IMG/VR virus record: IMGVR_UViG_3300028793_000006
Coordinates: 1-20,967 of that record
Length of the DNA stretch: 20,967 nucleotides
Source: a virus
Strand: one strand, 5' to 3'
Made by a program: the position numbers and the translations under genes. Every line of letters starts with the position of its first letter. The first letter of the stretch is position 1. A model generated the notes under the pieces. It made no database searches. It had not been told where the DNA came from and saw only the letters and a program-made list of their open reading frames with translations. This document shows, piece after piece, positions 4,696 through 9,360 of this stretch.

Positions 4696-6120
4696 GTGTT
4701 TCTTGTGAATGGGGAGTGGGTGGCCGGTATGGCCGAAAACGTTTACCTGAAAGCGTTGCGCGAGCAGTACGACGCGCTCAAGAAAAGCATTGAAGGGCTG
4801 CAGATCCGCGCAGCCGAAGCCAAGCGGGATATGACCAACGAAGAGCTGCGGTCGGTTGTCGAGCAGGGCGAGAAGGCTAAGGCACTGTACACGCAGATCG
4901 AAGACCTGTCTGAGATCGAGCTGCGCAACGCCAAGGTTGAGGCGATGGGGGCAAAGGTCCTCGCCGCACTGACCGGTAACCGCACCGACACCAGCGGCGA
5001 TGACGGTGCCGGCGGGGGCGACGGGACCGATGACGGTACCCGGTCTGTGAAGCTGGGCGGCGCCAAGACTCAGGAACGCGACCCGGGCCTCTACACCCGC
5101 GGCTCGGAGTACTCGTTCGTCGGTGACCAGTACCGTGCGGCCAGAATGGGTGAGACTGCGGCAGCTGAGCGGCTGGTCAAGCATTCGCGCATCCTGGTCG
5201 ACCTGGCACGCAGCGATGTGCACCTGCGTGACGTGCTCGGCGCGGGTGCTACCACGTTCGGTGCGGGCCTGGTGCCGCCGGTGTGGCTGGCCGAGCAGTT
5301 CGCGCCCGTGTTGCACCGCAGGCTGCGGGTGGCGTCAGTGCTGCGGCAGGTTCCGTGGGCTGGCCCGTTCGCGTGGTCGATCCCGGTTGCCGGCACCGTG
5401 GCGAAGACGTCGACCGTTGCCGAGGGTGTCAACACCACAGAGTCGGATCCGGCGTACGCGATCCTGACCGTTACCCCGAAGCCCATCATGGGCTACACAG
5501 AGGTTTCCCGGCAGATGTTGGAGGCTTCGAACCCGGCTGTGGATGCCATCATCTGGGGCGACCTGACCGGGGATTTCTATGACAATGCCGAACTGGAGTG
5601 CATCGTTGCGCTCAACGGTCAGGCCAACGTCAACGCGGTGACTGTGTCGGCCGGTGTGCTCACCACTACCGACATTGCGTTGCAGCGCGCCGGCCTGCTC
5701 GACGGTATCGCCGCGATCTCTGATGCACCCGCGGGTGACGCCGACTTCTTTGTCGGCCGCACCGCGCGTTGGACCACGTACCTGAAGTTCACCGATACGA
5801 CCGGCCGTCCGCTGATTCTGGCGCAGGCATACAACCCAGCCAATGCGATCGGTCAGGGCGGCGCCACGCAAGGGTTCCGCTCGCCGATTCAGGGCACGCT
5901 GGAGAACCTTGAGGTGGTGACGTCGCCGACGGTTGCCGCGTCGACGGGGTTCATCATCAACTCGCAGGAACACCTTTTCTCCATCTCTCCGCCGATGCAA
6001 TTCCAGTTCGACCAGCCGGCCGGGCCTGCCCTCATCCGGGTCGGTATCTGGGGCTACGAGGCGGTCACGTTCGGCCGCAGGCCGAAGGCGGTCACGAAGG
6101 TCACGTATTCCGGCAGCTAA
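4696..6120 (+). CDS. Major capsid protein, HK97 fold, with N-terminal scaffold domain
   Basis: This 474-residue protein forms the icosahedral shell. Residues 12-95 are a charged coiled coil (YLKALREQYDALKKSIEGLQ and on), the built-in delta/scaffold domain. A Gly/Asp linker at about 96-116 follows (GDDGAGGGDGTDDG), and the HK97 shell fold starts after about residue 125. Motifs VPPVWLAEQF, PVAGTVAKTS, YTEVSRQMLEAS and NAELECIVALNG are typical of HK97-fold capsids. The protease probably cuts near the end of the linker. GTG 4696 is chosen because AAGGAG (4685-4690) lies five bases upstream; ATG 4729 is a weaker alternative. The leader carries the direct repeats and a strong hairpin follows the stop. 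Confidence 0.93.
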   Translation: MFLVNGEWVAGMAENVYLKALREQYDALKKSIEGLQIRAAEAKRDMTNEELRSVVEQGEKAKALYTQIEDLSEIELRNAKVEAMGAKVLAALTGNRTDTSGDDGAGGGDGTDDGTRSVKLGGAKTQERDPGLYTRGSEYSFVGDQYRAARMGETAAAERLVKHSRILVDLARSDVHLRDVLGAGATTFGAGLVPPVWLAEQFAPVLHRRLRVASVLRQVPWAGPFAWSIPVAGTVAKTSTVAEGVNTTESDPAYAILTVTPKPIMGYTEVSRQMLEASNPAVDAIIWGDLTGDFYDNAELECIVALNGQANVNAVTVSAGVLTTTDIALQRAGLLDGIAAISDAPAGDADFFVGRTARWTTYLKFTDTTGRPLILAQAYNPANAIGQGGATQGFRSPIQGTLENLEVVTSPTVAASTGFIINSQEHLFSISPPMQFQFDQPAGPALIRVGIWGYEAVTFGRRPKAVTKVTYSGS

Positions 6121-6127
6121 CCAACGT

Positions 6128-6177
6128 CCCGGCCCGCCGCCTGGGATAGCCGGCGGGCCGGGGCTTCAGCTATCCCA
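6128..6177 (+). promoter_or_regulatory. Strong hairpin with pseudoknot potential after the capsid gene
   Basis: Bases 6128-6139 and 6151-6162 form a perfect 12-bp, almost all G/C stem with an 11-base loop, seven bases after the capsid stop. The loop bases 6142-6150 (TGGGATAGC) are perfectly complementary to 6169-6177 (GCTATCCCA). The RNA could therefore fold as an H-type pseudoknot, or switch between two mutually exclusive hairpins. No T-tract follows, so it is not a classical intrinsic terminator. It could reduce read-through from the heavily expressed capsid gene or protect the 3' end of its mRNA. Confidence 0.75.
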
Positions 6178-6197
6178 ACCAAGAAAGGGCGTGCCCG

Positions 6198-7556
6198 GTG
6201 AATGGACTCGATGGAGTCGTTCAGGTGGCGTACCTGCACAACGAACACGTGAGCCACTCGTGGGTTGAGTCGATGCGGCGCATCCGCAAACACGACCAGG
6301 CCGCGGGGCACCGTATCGCGGAGGACCCGCTTAATCTGCGCTGCGGTGCGGGCATGGTGGCGCAGACCCGCAACTACGGTGCCCGCCTGTTTTTGGACAA
6401 CACAGACCATGAGTGGCTGCTGTGGGTCGACACAGATATGGGTTGCGACCCGGACGCGGTTCACCGGCTGCTCGACGTCGCAGACGCTGCGGATCGGCCC
6501 GTTGTTGGTGCGTTGTGTTTCGCCTACATGGAAGCCGCCTACGACGGCATGGGCGGGTGGCGGCGCACGATCGTTCCCACCATGTACAAGTTGGGCACCA
6601 CAGTGGAGGGTGGGCAGGCGTCGTTCTGCTACTTCGGCGAATACCCTGACGACACGGTTGTGCAGGTGGCCGCGACCGGTGGCGCATTCCTGCTGATCCA
6701 CCGTGGTGTGTTGGAGAAGCTGCGCGCAGAACACGGGGACCACTGGTTTGACCAAATGTATGACCGCGCCGGTGATGTCATCGGTGAGGACATCGCTTTC
6801 TGCGCACGGGTGTTGAAGGCCGGCATCATCCCCGCAGTCCACACCGGGGTGAAAACCACCCACCACAAAGAGGTGTGGCTGTCCGAGGAGGATTACATCC
6901 GGCAGTCCGCAACTGCGGATCCGGAGGAGATCCACCCCGAGTTGCCGTTGCACATCCACTTGGCTGCGTCGTTCGCCAGCCTGGCCGCCTACGACCATGT
7001 CCATGACGGCATGCTCAAATTCCGCCAGGATCTGGCCCGCTACGCGCAGATCATCGACGCCACCCGGCCTGAGGTGGTGGTGGAGACCGGTACACATACC
7101 GGTGCGTCGGCGCGGTGGTTTGCAGACCTGGGCGTCGACGTCATCACAGTTGACGTCCGCGAGGCAGTGATCGGCCTGCCCTACCGTGACCGGGTCACGC
7201 AGGTGATGGGCAGCTCGGTGGACCCGGCGGTGGCCGCGCGTGTGGCAGAGCTGGTCGCAGGACGCCGTTGCATGGTGTCGCTTGACTCAGACCACTCCGG
7301 CCCGCATGTGGCTAAGGAGATCGACCTGTATGGGCCGATGGTGTCCCCCGGCTGCTACCTGGTGGTGGAGGACGGCATATTCGGATACGGCGAGTCCGCC
7401 CGTGTCCAACAGGGACTCTGCGACATGGTTGGTTCGCCGCTGGACGCGATCGCGTTGAACCTCGCCACCAACCCGGACTGGTCGCGGGACATCGCGATCG
7501 AACGGGCACACCCGGTGTCGTCCAACCCGGCCGGTTACTGGGTGCGCAATGGCTGA
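6198..7556 (+). CDS. Glycosyltransferase / CmcI-like O-methyltransferase fusion
   Basis: Two enzymes are joined in 452 residues. Residues 1-235 are a GT-A-type glycosyltransferase: RNYGARLFL, then the metal-binding DxD in WVDTDMG (D78, D80), TGGAFLLIHR (160-169), and a catalytic-type ED pair in IGEDIAF (E197, D198). Residues 275-452 resemble cephalosporin hydroxylase (CmcI)/rhamnosyl O-methyltransferases: SAM loop VETGTHTGAS (295-304), VITVDV (D319), metal-site SLDSDHSGPHVAKEIDLY (361-378) and YLVVEDG (387-393). Inferred action is adding a sugar and then methylating a sugar hydroxyl. GTG 6198 follows GAAAGGG at 8 bases. The next gene overlaps by eight bases. Its place beside the capsid gene suggests virion decoration; a host-surface substrate is possible. 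Confidence 0.85.
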   Translation: MNGLDGVVQVAYLHNEHVSHSWVESMRRIRKHDQAAGHRIAEDPLNLRCGAGMVAQTRNYGARLFLDNTDHEWLLWVDTDMGCDPDAVHRLLDVADAADRPVVGALCFAYMEAAYDGMGGWRRTIVPTMYKLGTTVEGGQASFCYFGEYPDDTVVQVAATGGAFLLIHRGVLEKLRAEHGDHWFDQMYDRAGDVIGEDIAFCARVLKAGIIPAVHTGVKTTHHKEVWLSEEDYIRQSATADPEEIHPELPLHIHLAASFASLAAYDHVHDGMLKFRQDLARYAQIIDATRPEVVVETGTHTGASARWFADLGVDVITVDVREAVIGLPYRDRVTQVMGSSVDPAVAARVAELVAGRRCMVSLDSDHSGPHVAKEIDLYGPMVSPGCYLVVEDGIFGYGESARVQQGLCDMVGSPLDAIALNLATNPDWSRDIAIERAHPVSSNPAGYWVRNG

Positions 7557-7749
7557 CGACCGCTATTCCGTGCCAGGGTACGGGGGATCGTTGGGTCCCG
7601 GACCGGGTCAGTACGGCAGGCCGCACGTGTATGCACGCGACGTGCAATCCGGTGCGGGCAACTGTGTCTGCGGGCGGGACCTGCCTCACTCGGTGCACTC
7701 AGAGGCCGCACCCGGCGTGCCGGTGCCGGAGGGGATGCGCCGTGGCTGA
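7549..7749 (+). CDS. Small Cys/His protein between the two glycosyltransferases
   Basis: This 66-residue protein of unknown function overlaps the preceding and following genes by eight bases each, a pattern that supports real, coupled translation. The N-terminal third is Gly/Pro/Tyr-rich (SVPGYGGSLGPGPGQYG). The middle has C39-V-C41 and H47-x2-H50 (NCVCGRDLPHSVH), a plausible small zinc site. It is too short to be an enzyme and could be a partner or an acceptor for the flanking enzymes; that is inference only. Confidence 0.65.
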   Translation: MADDRYSVPGYGGSLGPGPGQYGRPHVYARDVQSGAGNCVCGRDLPHSVHSEAAPGVPVPEGMRRG

Positions 7750-8488
7750 CCTGGCGATCATCACCCCGACCCGTGGCCGCCCGGAGCGGTTCACCGCGAT
7801 GGTCGCAGCTGTCCGACGTACGGCCGTCTGCACTGTCGAAATATGGGCGGGTCTGGACGTCGACGACACCTGCGACTACTTCGCCGCAGCACAGGACACC
7901 CCGGGCCAAGAGATGGTCATGGCGGTGCGTGGCGAGCGGCGTTCGCTGTCTGCGTGGACAAACGAGCTGGCGTTGAGGGCGTTGAACGATACCGGCAGGT
8001 TCCGCGATCAGCCCCGCTATCTGGCATCGCTGGGCGATGACCACCTGCCCCGCACACCGGGTTGGGATCGCGCGCTGATCGAGGCCATCGAGGGTTTACC
8101 CGGCGGGTCTGGGTTCGCCTACGGCAACGACCTGCTGCAGGGTGAGCAGATGCCCACTGCGTGGGTGGTGTCCGCTGATGTGGTGCGCGCGCTGGGCTGG
8201 ATGATGCTGCCGGACTGTGAGCACATGTATGTGGACAATGCGATCCTTGCACTCGGCCGGGCGGCTGGGCGGATCGTCTACTGCCCGGAGGTCATCGTCG
8301 AGCATGTGCACCCGGCTGCGGGTAAAACGGCCTGGGATGCAAGCTACCGGGCCTCCAACACACCTGCACGGTATGCGGCAGACCGTGCCGCGTTTGAGGC
8401 CTGGCAGGCATCTGGGCTGGCTACAGACGTGGCGAAACTGGCCGCGATGACCGCATCCATCGGGGCGGAGGTAGCCGGATGGCTTTGA
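7742..8488 (+). CDS. GT2-like glycosyltransferase
   Basis: This is a second GT-A-fold glycosyltransferase of 248 residues. It opens with the family-typical nucleotide-binding start LAIITPTRGRPERF, has a DxD-like metal site in SLGDDHLPRTPGWD (D99-D100-H101), and an acceptor-side region GFAYGNDLL with a late VDNAIL (164-169) and a closing IVEHVHP (185-191). No membrane segment is visible, so it is likely cytosolic. GTG 7742 is chosen because GGAGGGG (7728-7734) stands seven bases upstream. The frame is open back to 7631, but that part is shadow of the small gene. It overlaps the connector gene by ten bases. With the preceding fusion it probably builds a sugar chain rather than a single sugar. 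Confidence 0.8.
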   Translation: MADLAIITPTRGRPERFTAMVAAVRRTAVCTVEIWAGLDVDDTCDYFAAAQDTPGQEMVMAVRGERRSLSAWTNELALRALNDTGRFRDQPRYLASLGDDHLPRTPGWDRALIEAIEGLPGGSGFAYGNDLLQGEQMPTAWVVSADVVRALGWMMLPDCEHMYVDNAILALGRAAGRIVYCPEVIVEHVHPAAGKTAWDASYRASNTPARYAADRAAFEAWQASGLATDVAKLAAMTASIGAEVAGWL

Positions 8489-9360
8489 TGCGGGTCGCGG
8501 TGACATCGGCGGTGACGCTGTCGCACACGTTCGCTGTGGACGCGGCAGCACTTGACGCGGCCGGTGCGGTCACTGTGGCGGTGAAGCGGCTCGACGGCAC
8601 AGCAGTGACGGCCGGCACCGCAAGCGTGGGGACGGTCGGGGATGGTATCTACACGTTTCCACTACCGGCACAGGCCACGCTGGACACGCTAACGGTGGAT
8701 TGGACTGGGACGTTTGGCGGGGCAGCGTTCACCGGCCGCGACTTTGTTGAAGTTGTGGGCGGGTTCCTGTTCGGGCTGCCGGAGGCGTACGCGATGAAGC
8801 CGGTGTTGGATCCGGTCAAATATCCTGTGTCCACTGTGGCGAGGAAACGCATCGAGGTTGAGCAGGAGTGCGAACAGATCTGCGGGCAGGCGTTCGTGCC
8901 GCGTTACGCCCGGGTCGCACTGTCGGGGCGCGGCATAGCACGGTTGGTGATACCGCGCAGCGAAACCGGCGGACATACGATGCTGCGCACCCTGCGCACG
9001 ATCACAGTGTCGGGGGTGGCGTGGTCGGCGCCGGACGTGGCCGCAGTCGGGTTCACAGACACAGGTGTCCTGACCCGTCCGGGCGGTGCGATGTGGCCGC
9101 TCGGGTTCCGCAACATCGTCGTCGAATATGAGCATGGTCTGGACTATCCGCCCGACGAGATCGGTACCGCGGGCATTGTGCGACTGCGCTCCAAGCTGGG
9201 CCTGGGCGACACGTCTGTGCCGTACCGTGCACTGTCGTTCACCGCTGCAGAAGGCGGTACCTACCGGCTGTCGACACCTGCGGCGGACCGCACCGGCATC
9301 CCCGATGTTGACGCCGTTTACGCCCGGCACCCGGGTCCGAAACGGACGGTGTTCGCGTAG
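8479..9360 (+). CDS. Putative head-tail connector (adaptor) protein
   Basis: This 293-residue protein has an N-terminal beta-rich domain (about 1-100: VTLSHTFAVD, GIYTFPLPAQ, TLTVDWTGTF) and a C-terminal part resembling gp6/gp15-type connector proteins, with the helix KRIEVEQECEQICGQAF (about 123-139) followed by strands. Such proteins sit below the portal and receive the tail. ATG 8479 has GGAGGT at 8467-8472, six bases upstream, an excellent ribosome binding site inside the glycosyltransferase gene. The next gene begins immediately after its stop. The function is inferred from position and a loose resemblance. The extra N-terminal domain could be exposed on the virion neck. Confidence 0.6.
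   Translation: MALMRVAVTSAVTLSHTFAVDAAALDAAGAVTVAVKRLDGTAVTAGTASVGTVGDGIYTFPLPAQATLDTLTVDWTGTFGGAAFTGRDFVEVVGGFLFGLPEAYAMKPVLDPVKYPVSTVARKRIEVEQECEQICGQAFVPRYARVALSGRGIARLVIPRSETGGHTMLRTLRTITVSGVAWSAPDVAAVGFTDTGVLTRPGGAMWPLGFRNIVVEYEHGLDYPPDEIGTAGIVRLRSKLGLGDTSVPYRALSFTAAEGGTYRLSTPAADRTGIPDVDAVYARHPGPKRTVFA

Follow-up and report, generated by a model that had tools for sequence, protein, structure and literature searches.

To our knowledge, the isolates of tailed phages for which glycosylation of the virion has been demonstrated are few. The closest described systems are those of the mycobacteriophages Che8, Corndog and Myrna, in which, according to PMC12363180 and PMC11256854 citing Freeman et al. 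2023, glycosyltransferases encoded by the phage modify capsid or tail proteins of the same phage. The glycosyltransferase genes of Maravista, a related phage, are found towards the 3′ end of its genome. A differently arranged cluster is found in phiAsp2, where the consecutive, overlapping genes pas33 to pas35 encode a glycosyltransferase, a fusion of a second glycosyltransferase (GT2) with a methyltransferase, and a further glycosyltransferase. CmcI and the macrolide-sugar methyltransferase MycE share the fold of SAM- and Mg2+-dependent O-methyltransferases.

Here, we analyzed the linear 20,967-base IMG/VR virus record IMGVR_UViG_3300028793_000006, which is probably a fragment; the whole stretch is referred to as the window. 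Like Che8, Corndog and Myrna, the window encodes glycosyltransferases, which likely work as those of Che8 and Corndog do. Unlike those systems, the window carries a fused sugar O-methyltransferase and its relatives carry swapped tailoring enzymes, and, unlike in Maravista, the genes lie behind the capsid gene. In tblastn searches at 1e-5 with both glycosyltransferases (GT1 and GT2), no match was obtained in mycobacteriophage records, so homology to the Che8 and Corndog enzymes was not found at the sequence level. The phiAsp2 cluster is similar in arrangement and its GT2 is 35% identical to that of the window, whereas its methyltransferase is attached to GT2 instead of GT1 and is of the Methyltransf_24 type, and the cluster is located downstream of the tail genes. 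The predicted methyltransferase domain shares with CmcI and MycE a common fold and the D/H/D active-site residues; unlike them, it is joined to a glycosyltransferase and is encoded by a phage. Our best reading is that positions 6198-8488 of the window are one local form of a polymorphic island for glycosylation of the capsid, which in many uncultivated actinobacterial phages has a fixed place between the capsid and connector genes. Virion glycosylation itself is known; the form that we propose differs in its fixed island on the capsid side, in tailoring enzymes that are exchanged, among them a sugar O-methyltransferase fused to GT1, and in an RNA element of which we found no description.

Organization of the cassette

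Assignments by Pfam and PHROG gave the gene order TerL, portal, prohead protease, major capsid protein, cassette, head-tail connector and tail genes, the last on the same strand as the cassette, in agreement with a preliminary description of this DNA that had placed the cassette within a head-to-tail gene block. The features are as follows.

4696..6120, plus strand: major capsid protein gene, HK97-type (Pfam Phage_capsid 6.9e-7; PHROG 2263 5.5e-19)
6126..6177, plus strand: pseudoknot-like RNA element (hairpin and loop complementarity; seen in related loci)
6182..6189, plus strand: putative ribosome-binding site AGAAAGGG of the GT1-MT gene, directly 3′ of the RNA element (sequence)
6198..7556, plus strand: GT1-MT fusion, 452 aa, with a GT-A glycosyltransferase at about residues 6-237 and a CmcI/MycE-type O-methyltransferase at 269-450 (Pfam, PHROG, PDB profile search, AlphaFold2, Foldseek)
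7549..7749, plus strand: 66-aa ORF with a CxC...H..H stretch (PHROG 15751 1.6e-10; mycobacteriophage hypothetical proteins), optional
7742..8488, plus strand: GT2, second GT-A glycosyltransferase, 248 aa, GTG start (PHROG 14945 glycosyltransferase 2e-33; AlphaFold2; Foldseek)
8479..9360, plus strand: head-tail connector gene, 3′ border of the slot (PHROG 442 head-tail adaptor 4.8e-12; PHROG 30828 1.9e-60)

The capsid gene ends at 6120 and the GT1-MT gene starts with GTG at 6198 (stop at 7556), leaving a 77-bp gap that contains a strong RNA fold and no overlap. The junctions from GT1-MT through the 66-aa ORF and GT2 to the connector overlap by 8, 8 and 10 bp, which reproduces the coupling overlaps of 8-10 bases initially claimed. 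We presume that the HK97-type capsid protein is the acceptor; at the least, its gene anchors the slot. The 66-aa Cys/His protein had also been counted as a member of the cassette, an assignment that we rejected because the ORF has no convincing homologue in the collected relatives and is absent from the closest relative, L010, where GT1-MT and GT2 overlap directly; it is probably an incidental insertion. An integron-like pair of flanking sites was also put aside, only overlapping genes being present at the 3′ border. At the nucleotide level, the window as a whole had no match among isolate phages.

Folds and active-site residues of the encoded enzymes

Searches of the PDB with each domain as a single sequence returned nothing useful, and profile and fold searches were needed. 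The following motifs were located in the GT1-MT fusion.

6429..6437, plus strand: DTD (D78-D80), the DxD motif of GT1 for metal and nucleotide sugar (both aspartates are invariant in 35 relatives)
7080..7109, plus strand: SAM-binding motif VETGTHTGAS, residues 295-304 (sequence)
7284..7373, plus strand: methyltransferase active site D363, H366, D392 (profile alignment to 3ssm and 2bm8)

The GT1 domain matched a PHROG glycosyltransferase over residues 8-233 (2.4e-22) and reached 15.9 bits with Pfam Glycos_transf_2, below the cut-off of 23.3. An AlphaFold2 model of the fusion had a pLDDT of 94.2 and a pTM of 0.77, the latter making the relative placing of the two domains less sure. The best Foldseek matches of the GT1 domain, assigned by description and length, include the archaeal-virus protein STIV A197, mimivirus R699, and the polypeptide glycosyltransferases GalNAc-T2 and LH3 glycosyltransferase, with which it has the GT-A fold in common at an identity of only 10-16%. 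Together with D78 and D80, the residues E197, D198 and H222 are invariant among the 35 GT1 relatives, in line with the GT-A enzyme and DxD motif originally proposed.

For the methyltransferase domain, PF04989 (RMNT_CmcI) aligned to residues 269-450 with E=1.4e-29 and 103.7 bits against a cut-off of 23.2, covering profile positions 11-205 of 206, and the additional motifs SLDSDHS and VVEDG were found at residues 361 and 389. A profile built from 59 family members retrieved MycE (9.7e-4) and CmcI (0.0096) from the PDB, and in the profile alignment D363, H366 and D392 correspond to D275, H278 and D304 of MycE. These are conserved active-site residues of the sugar O-methyltransferase group, the two aspartates of which bind Mg2+ (MycE/ThnM1; PMC9275233). 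Residues 275-452, on whose placement in the CmcI fold the preliminary description had staked its reading, matched CmcI 2bm8 (E 2.6e-8) and also MycE 3ssn when the model was searched with Foldseek, so that motifs, Pfam and structure prediction agree on a fused CmcI-type methyltransferase.

The GT2 model (pLDDT 95.6, pTM 0.92) likewise matched GT-A glycosyltransferases, such as AvpGT, K4CP, WrtF and SpsA, whereas none of the Pfam glycosyltransferase families scored above its cut-off. It carries an acidic metal motif, with D39/D41/D42 and D99-D100-H101; the latter is the DDH motif previously noted, in which D100 is invariant and D99 and H101 are nearly invariant across 37 relatives. Both cassette genes are under purifying selection, with dN/dS values against L010 of 0.22 for GT1-MT and 0.27 for GT2.

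Hypermodified bases are glucosylated by some phages, and enzymes of this kind could instead glycosylate or methylate the phage DNA. We regard this as highly improbable, given that the methyltransferase adopts a sugar/small-molecule O-methyltransferase fold, that the genes are located among head genes, and that base-hypermodification genes were not found among the scanned proteins of the window, itself a fragment.

Distribution of the GT1 family

GT1 relatives were present in at least 331 IMG/VR contigs, of which 80 were kept for comparison, and at nine loci in bacterial genomes, eight of them actinobacterial (Streptomyces, Rugosimonospora, Microbacterium, Amycolatopsis, Nonomuraea and Acrocarpospora). 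Among them are prophages of Streptomyces speibonae (L155) and S. chumphonensis (L156), in which GT1 adjoins the capsid gene. The sole non-actinobacterial genome locus, in Oryzibacter (L163, 7119-10376), consists of tandem GT1-like genes beside a GtrB-like gene. By contrast, tblastn with three different GT1 members against 50,697 isolate phage records yielded only two distant matches, and when actinobacterial genomes were sampled in two sets (395 and 296), none matched apart from the genome at the centre of each set. GT1 is therefore a gene of uncultivated phages and rare prophages, and from the prophages we infer that the host of these phages is actinobacterial.

A fixed slot with swapped partners

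Genes at the loci were called with a home-made gene caller and profile HMMs, and divergent capsid proteins were checked with PHROGs. A capsid gene lies one to four genes upstream of GT1 in 69 of the 75 distinct loci with enough upstream sequence (median gap, 351 bp), and three of the six exceptions (L002, L137 and L146) also have a capsid gene nearby according to PHROGs. Since the capsid proteins of these loci have a median pairwise identity of 32%, the adjacency does not reflect simple close kinship.

In 62 of 73 loci GT1 is overlapped by the next gene, and what follows varies: a fused CmcI-type methyltransferase and then GT2 (15 loci), a separate CmcI-type methyltransferase and then GT2 (7 loci), GT2 with a methyltransferase and an epimerase (7 loci), or an epimerase with another glycosyltransferase (6 loci). 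Other loci carry GT1-glycosyltransferase fusions with a methyltransferase, a 2OG-Fe(II) oxygenase or an NDP-hexose-type C-methyltransferase. The partners of GT1 are sugar-tailoring enzymes, namely NDP-sugar epimerase, methyltransferases, C-methyltransferase, 2OG oxygenase and other glycosyltransferases. On the GT1 tree, the state of the gene (alone, fused to a methyltransferase or fused to a glycosyltransferase) requires 12 changes, an approximate number because the quick tree has many weakly supported forks and a few of the genes scored as alone are cut by contig ends. Within the clade of the window itself, the arrangement GT1-MT with GT2 is interleaved with that of GT1, epimerase and glycosyltransferase.

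Comparison of the window with L010 also points to exchange. The capsid and connector proteins are 96% identical between the two (dS 0.39 and 0.41), whereas dS is 0.75 for GT1-MT and 0.80 for GT2, and DNA identity drops from 0.99 to 0.42 inside the gap between the capsid gene and GT1, to rise again over the connector gene. The cassette was therefore apparently exchanged as a unit, and recombination is the simplest account; relaxed protein constraint is not enough, because it alone would not raise dS. The cassette genes also evolve faster at the protein level (dN/dS against L010 of 0.22-0.27 versus 0.06 for the capsid gene), which fits changeable coats but fits weaker constraint as well.

The conserved position behind very different capsids, the folds and the sugar-tailoring partners make virion glycosylation, as first proposed from the window, a much stronger reading than the window alone would allow. 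From position, predicted fold and partners, we consider glycosylation of the capsid the best explanation, and a likely one. Adjacency suggests but does not prove the acceptor, and GT2 relatives in isolates can be far from head genes, as in the case of phiAsp2 pas34. The cassette of the window contains no enzyme of sugar-nucleotide synthesis; therefore, host donors would be needed.

Alternatively, the cassette could glycosylate a tail or other virion protein and sit behind the capsid gene only because the late operon tolerates an insertion there. In favor of this, the tail genes lie downstream in the same orientation, and in Che8-type systems, as reviewed in PMC12363180, capsid and tail tube are both modified. 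A neutral site should drift, however, and GT1 stays beside the capsid gene across the divergence described above, which leads us to regard a tail target as unlikely.

Alteration of the host envelope is common among phage glycosyltransferases. Seroconversion or superinfection exclusion would accord with this and with the GtrB-like gene adjoining the distant bacterial array in Oryzibacter. Against an envelope target, the cassette overlaps the connector gene, its partners are tailoring enzymes, and genes for a membrane flippase or polymerase were not recognised in the slot; we judge it very unlikely.

An RNA element between the capsid gene and GT1

Stem 1 of the element comprises 14 bp (6126-6139 with 6151-6164), and the hairpin loop TGGGATAGC at 6142-6150 is the reverse complement of GCTATCCCA at 6169-6177, just before the likely ribosome-binding site of GT1-MT. 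A simple finder located the element between the capsid gene and GT1 in 52 of 78 GT1 loci. Across 964 kb, 65 intergenic matches were obtained on the plus strand, 56 of them in the capsid-GT1 gap; minus-strand matches at the same sites are expected, because the reverse complement of the element is again such an element. The element was found in 35 of 76 capsid 3′ flanks compared with 2 of 1520 dinucleotide shuffles; it was absent from all 14 related loci that lack GT1, although these are phylogenetically apart. A search of Rfam 15 with the capsid-GT1 element returned five matches, all far below the gathering score (for example, M23 at 17.9 versus 41.2 bits).

The sequence of the loop arms is highly variable, with 39 distinct versions among 56 elements, and the match is kept. 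This is illustrated by L011 and L012, in which flanking genes are mostly 80-100% identical while the elements are only about 50% alike, each with its own complementarity. Covariation counts on a MAFFT alignment were dropped in favor of a swap permutation, as gaps misplaced the 3′ arm of the second stem. In the swap test, strong hairpins were picked regardless of any second pairing, and a downstream match to the loop of at least 7 nt was scored. A hairpin of at least 10 bp was present in 72 of 78 loci; 43 of these 72 matched their own downstream sequence, compared with 3.7% for swapped partners and a maximum of 11 in 10,000 permutations.

The element could alternatively be a strong terminator-like hairpin, typical of high-GC phages, with the loop complementarity as a by-product. 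It would then be understandable that only 43 of the 72 hairpins show the second pairing, and that the third loop is often 0-5 nt long against a first stem of 12-18 bp, so that both stems cannot be complete at once. The excess of own over swapped partners and the match kept across the 39 loop sequences argue against a by-product, and we hold this alternative to be doubtful. With many third loops too short to span all of stem 1, the element is also hard to reconcile with a classical pseudoknot in which the two stems form completely. It is more likely that stem 1 opens in part, for instance when a ribosome finishes the capsid gene 3-20 nt upstream, or that the two pairings alternate. Programmed frameshifting or stop-codon readthrough of the capsid gene was put aside, as the element lies 3-65 nt (once 121) past the capsid stop and elsewhere behind another small gene.

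Proposed mechanism

In the model that we propose, GT1 would place the first sugar onto a protein of the virion, for which the newly made product of the upstream capsid gene is the most likely candidate. A second sugar would come from GT2, and O-methylation of a sugar hydroxyl, with SAM and Mg2+, from the fused CmcI/MycE-type domain. How much enzyme is made, compared with the highly abundant capsid protein, would be set by the RNA element, probably through attenuation that is relieved when a ribosome terminating on the capsid gene opens the fold. The benefit would be a changeable coat, which may affect charge, adsorption or recognition. More tentatively, and with somewhat less than even confidence, we suggest for many uncultivated actinophages a capsid-locked, exchangeable "serotype" island, in which one protein-glycosylating GT1 is kept behind the capsid gene while the sugar-tailoring enzymes that follow are swapped, as in bacterial O-antigen loci, the whole being gated from capsid translation by a new class of RNA element with hypervariable sequence and conserved structure.

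A glycosyltransferase family carried by at least 331 metagenomic phage contigs and essentially missing from isolates marks a fixed site of glycan-enzyme exchange. If our reading is true, the surface chemistry of the capsid would be a diversifying trait of these actinophages that is readable from sequence and testable on Streptomyces prophages. The RNA element offers a clean test of how a catalytic enzyme is tuned against the most abundant protein of the phage.

Other genes of the slot

In many lineages, the RNA element and GT1 are separated by a gene for a protein of about 87 aa that is rich in proline and charged residues and weakly resembles the head-tail connector PHROG 9538 (48 ORFs of the slot, among them L100 4182-4445). 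In related phages that lack GT1, the capsid and connector genes often flank a solitary Methyltransf_24/CmcI-like gene of about 190 aa (L042, L048, L051, L052, L066, L067, L033, L060 and L063), and its motifs look eroded in L060 and L063. In two loci without GT1, portal, prohead protease and major capsid domains follow one another in one ORF of about 1035 aa (L037 1710-4820 and L045 2043-5144), an apparent head polyprotein. Finally, an ORF at 5523-6140 of L002 covers only the C-terminal part of the capsid gene, possibly reflecting a split gene or a frameshift, and is followed by an endonuclease VII-like gene at 6247-6897.
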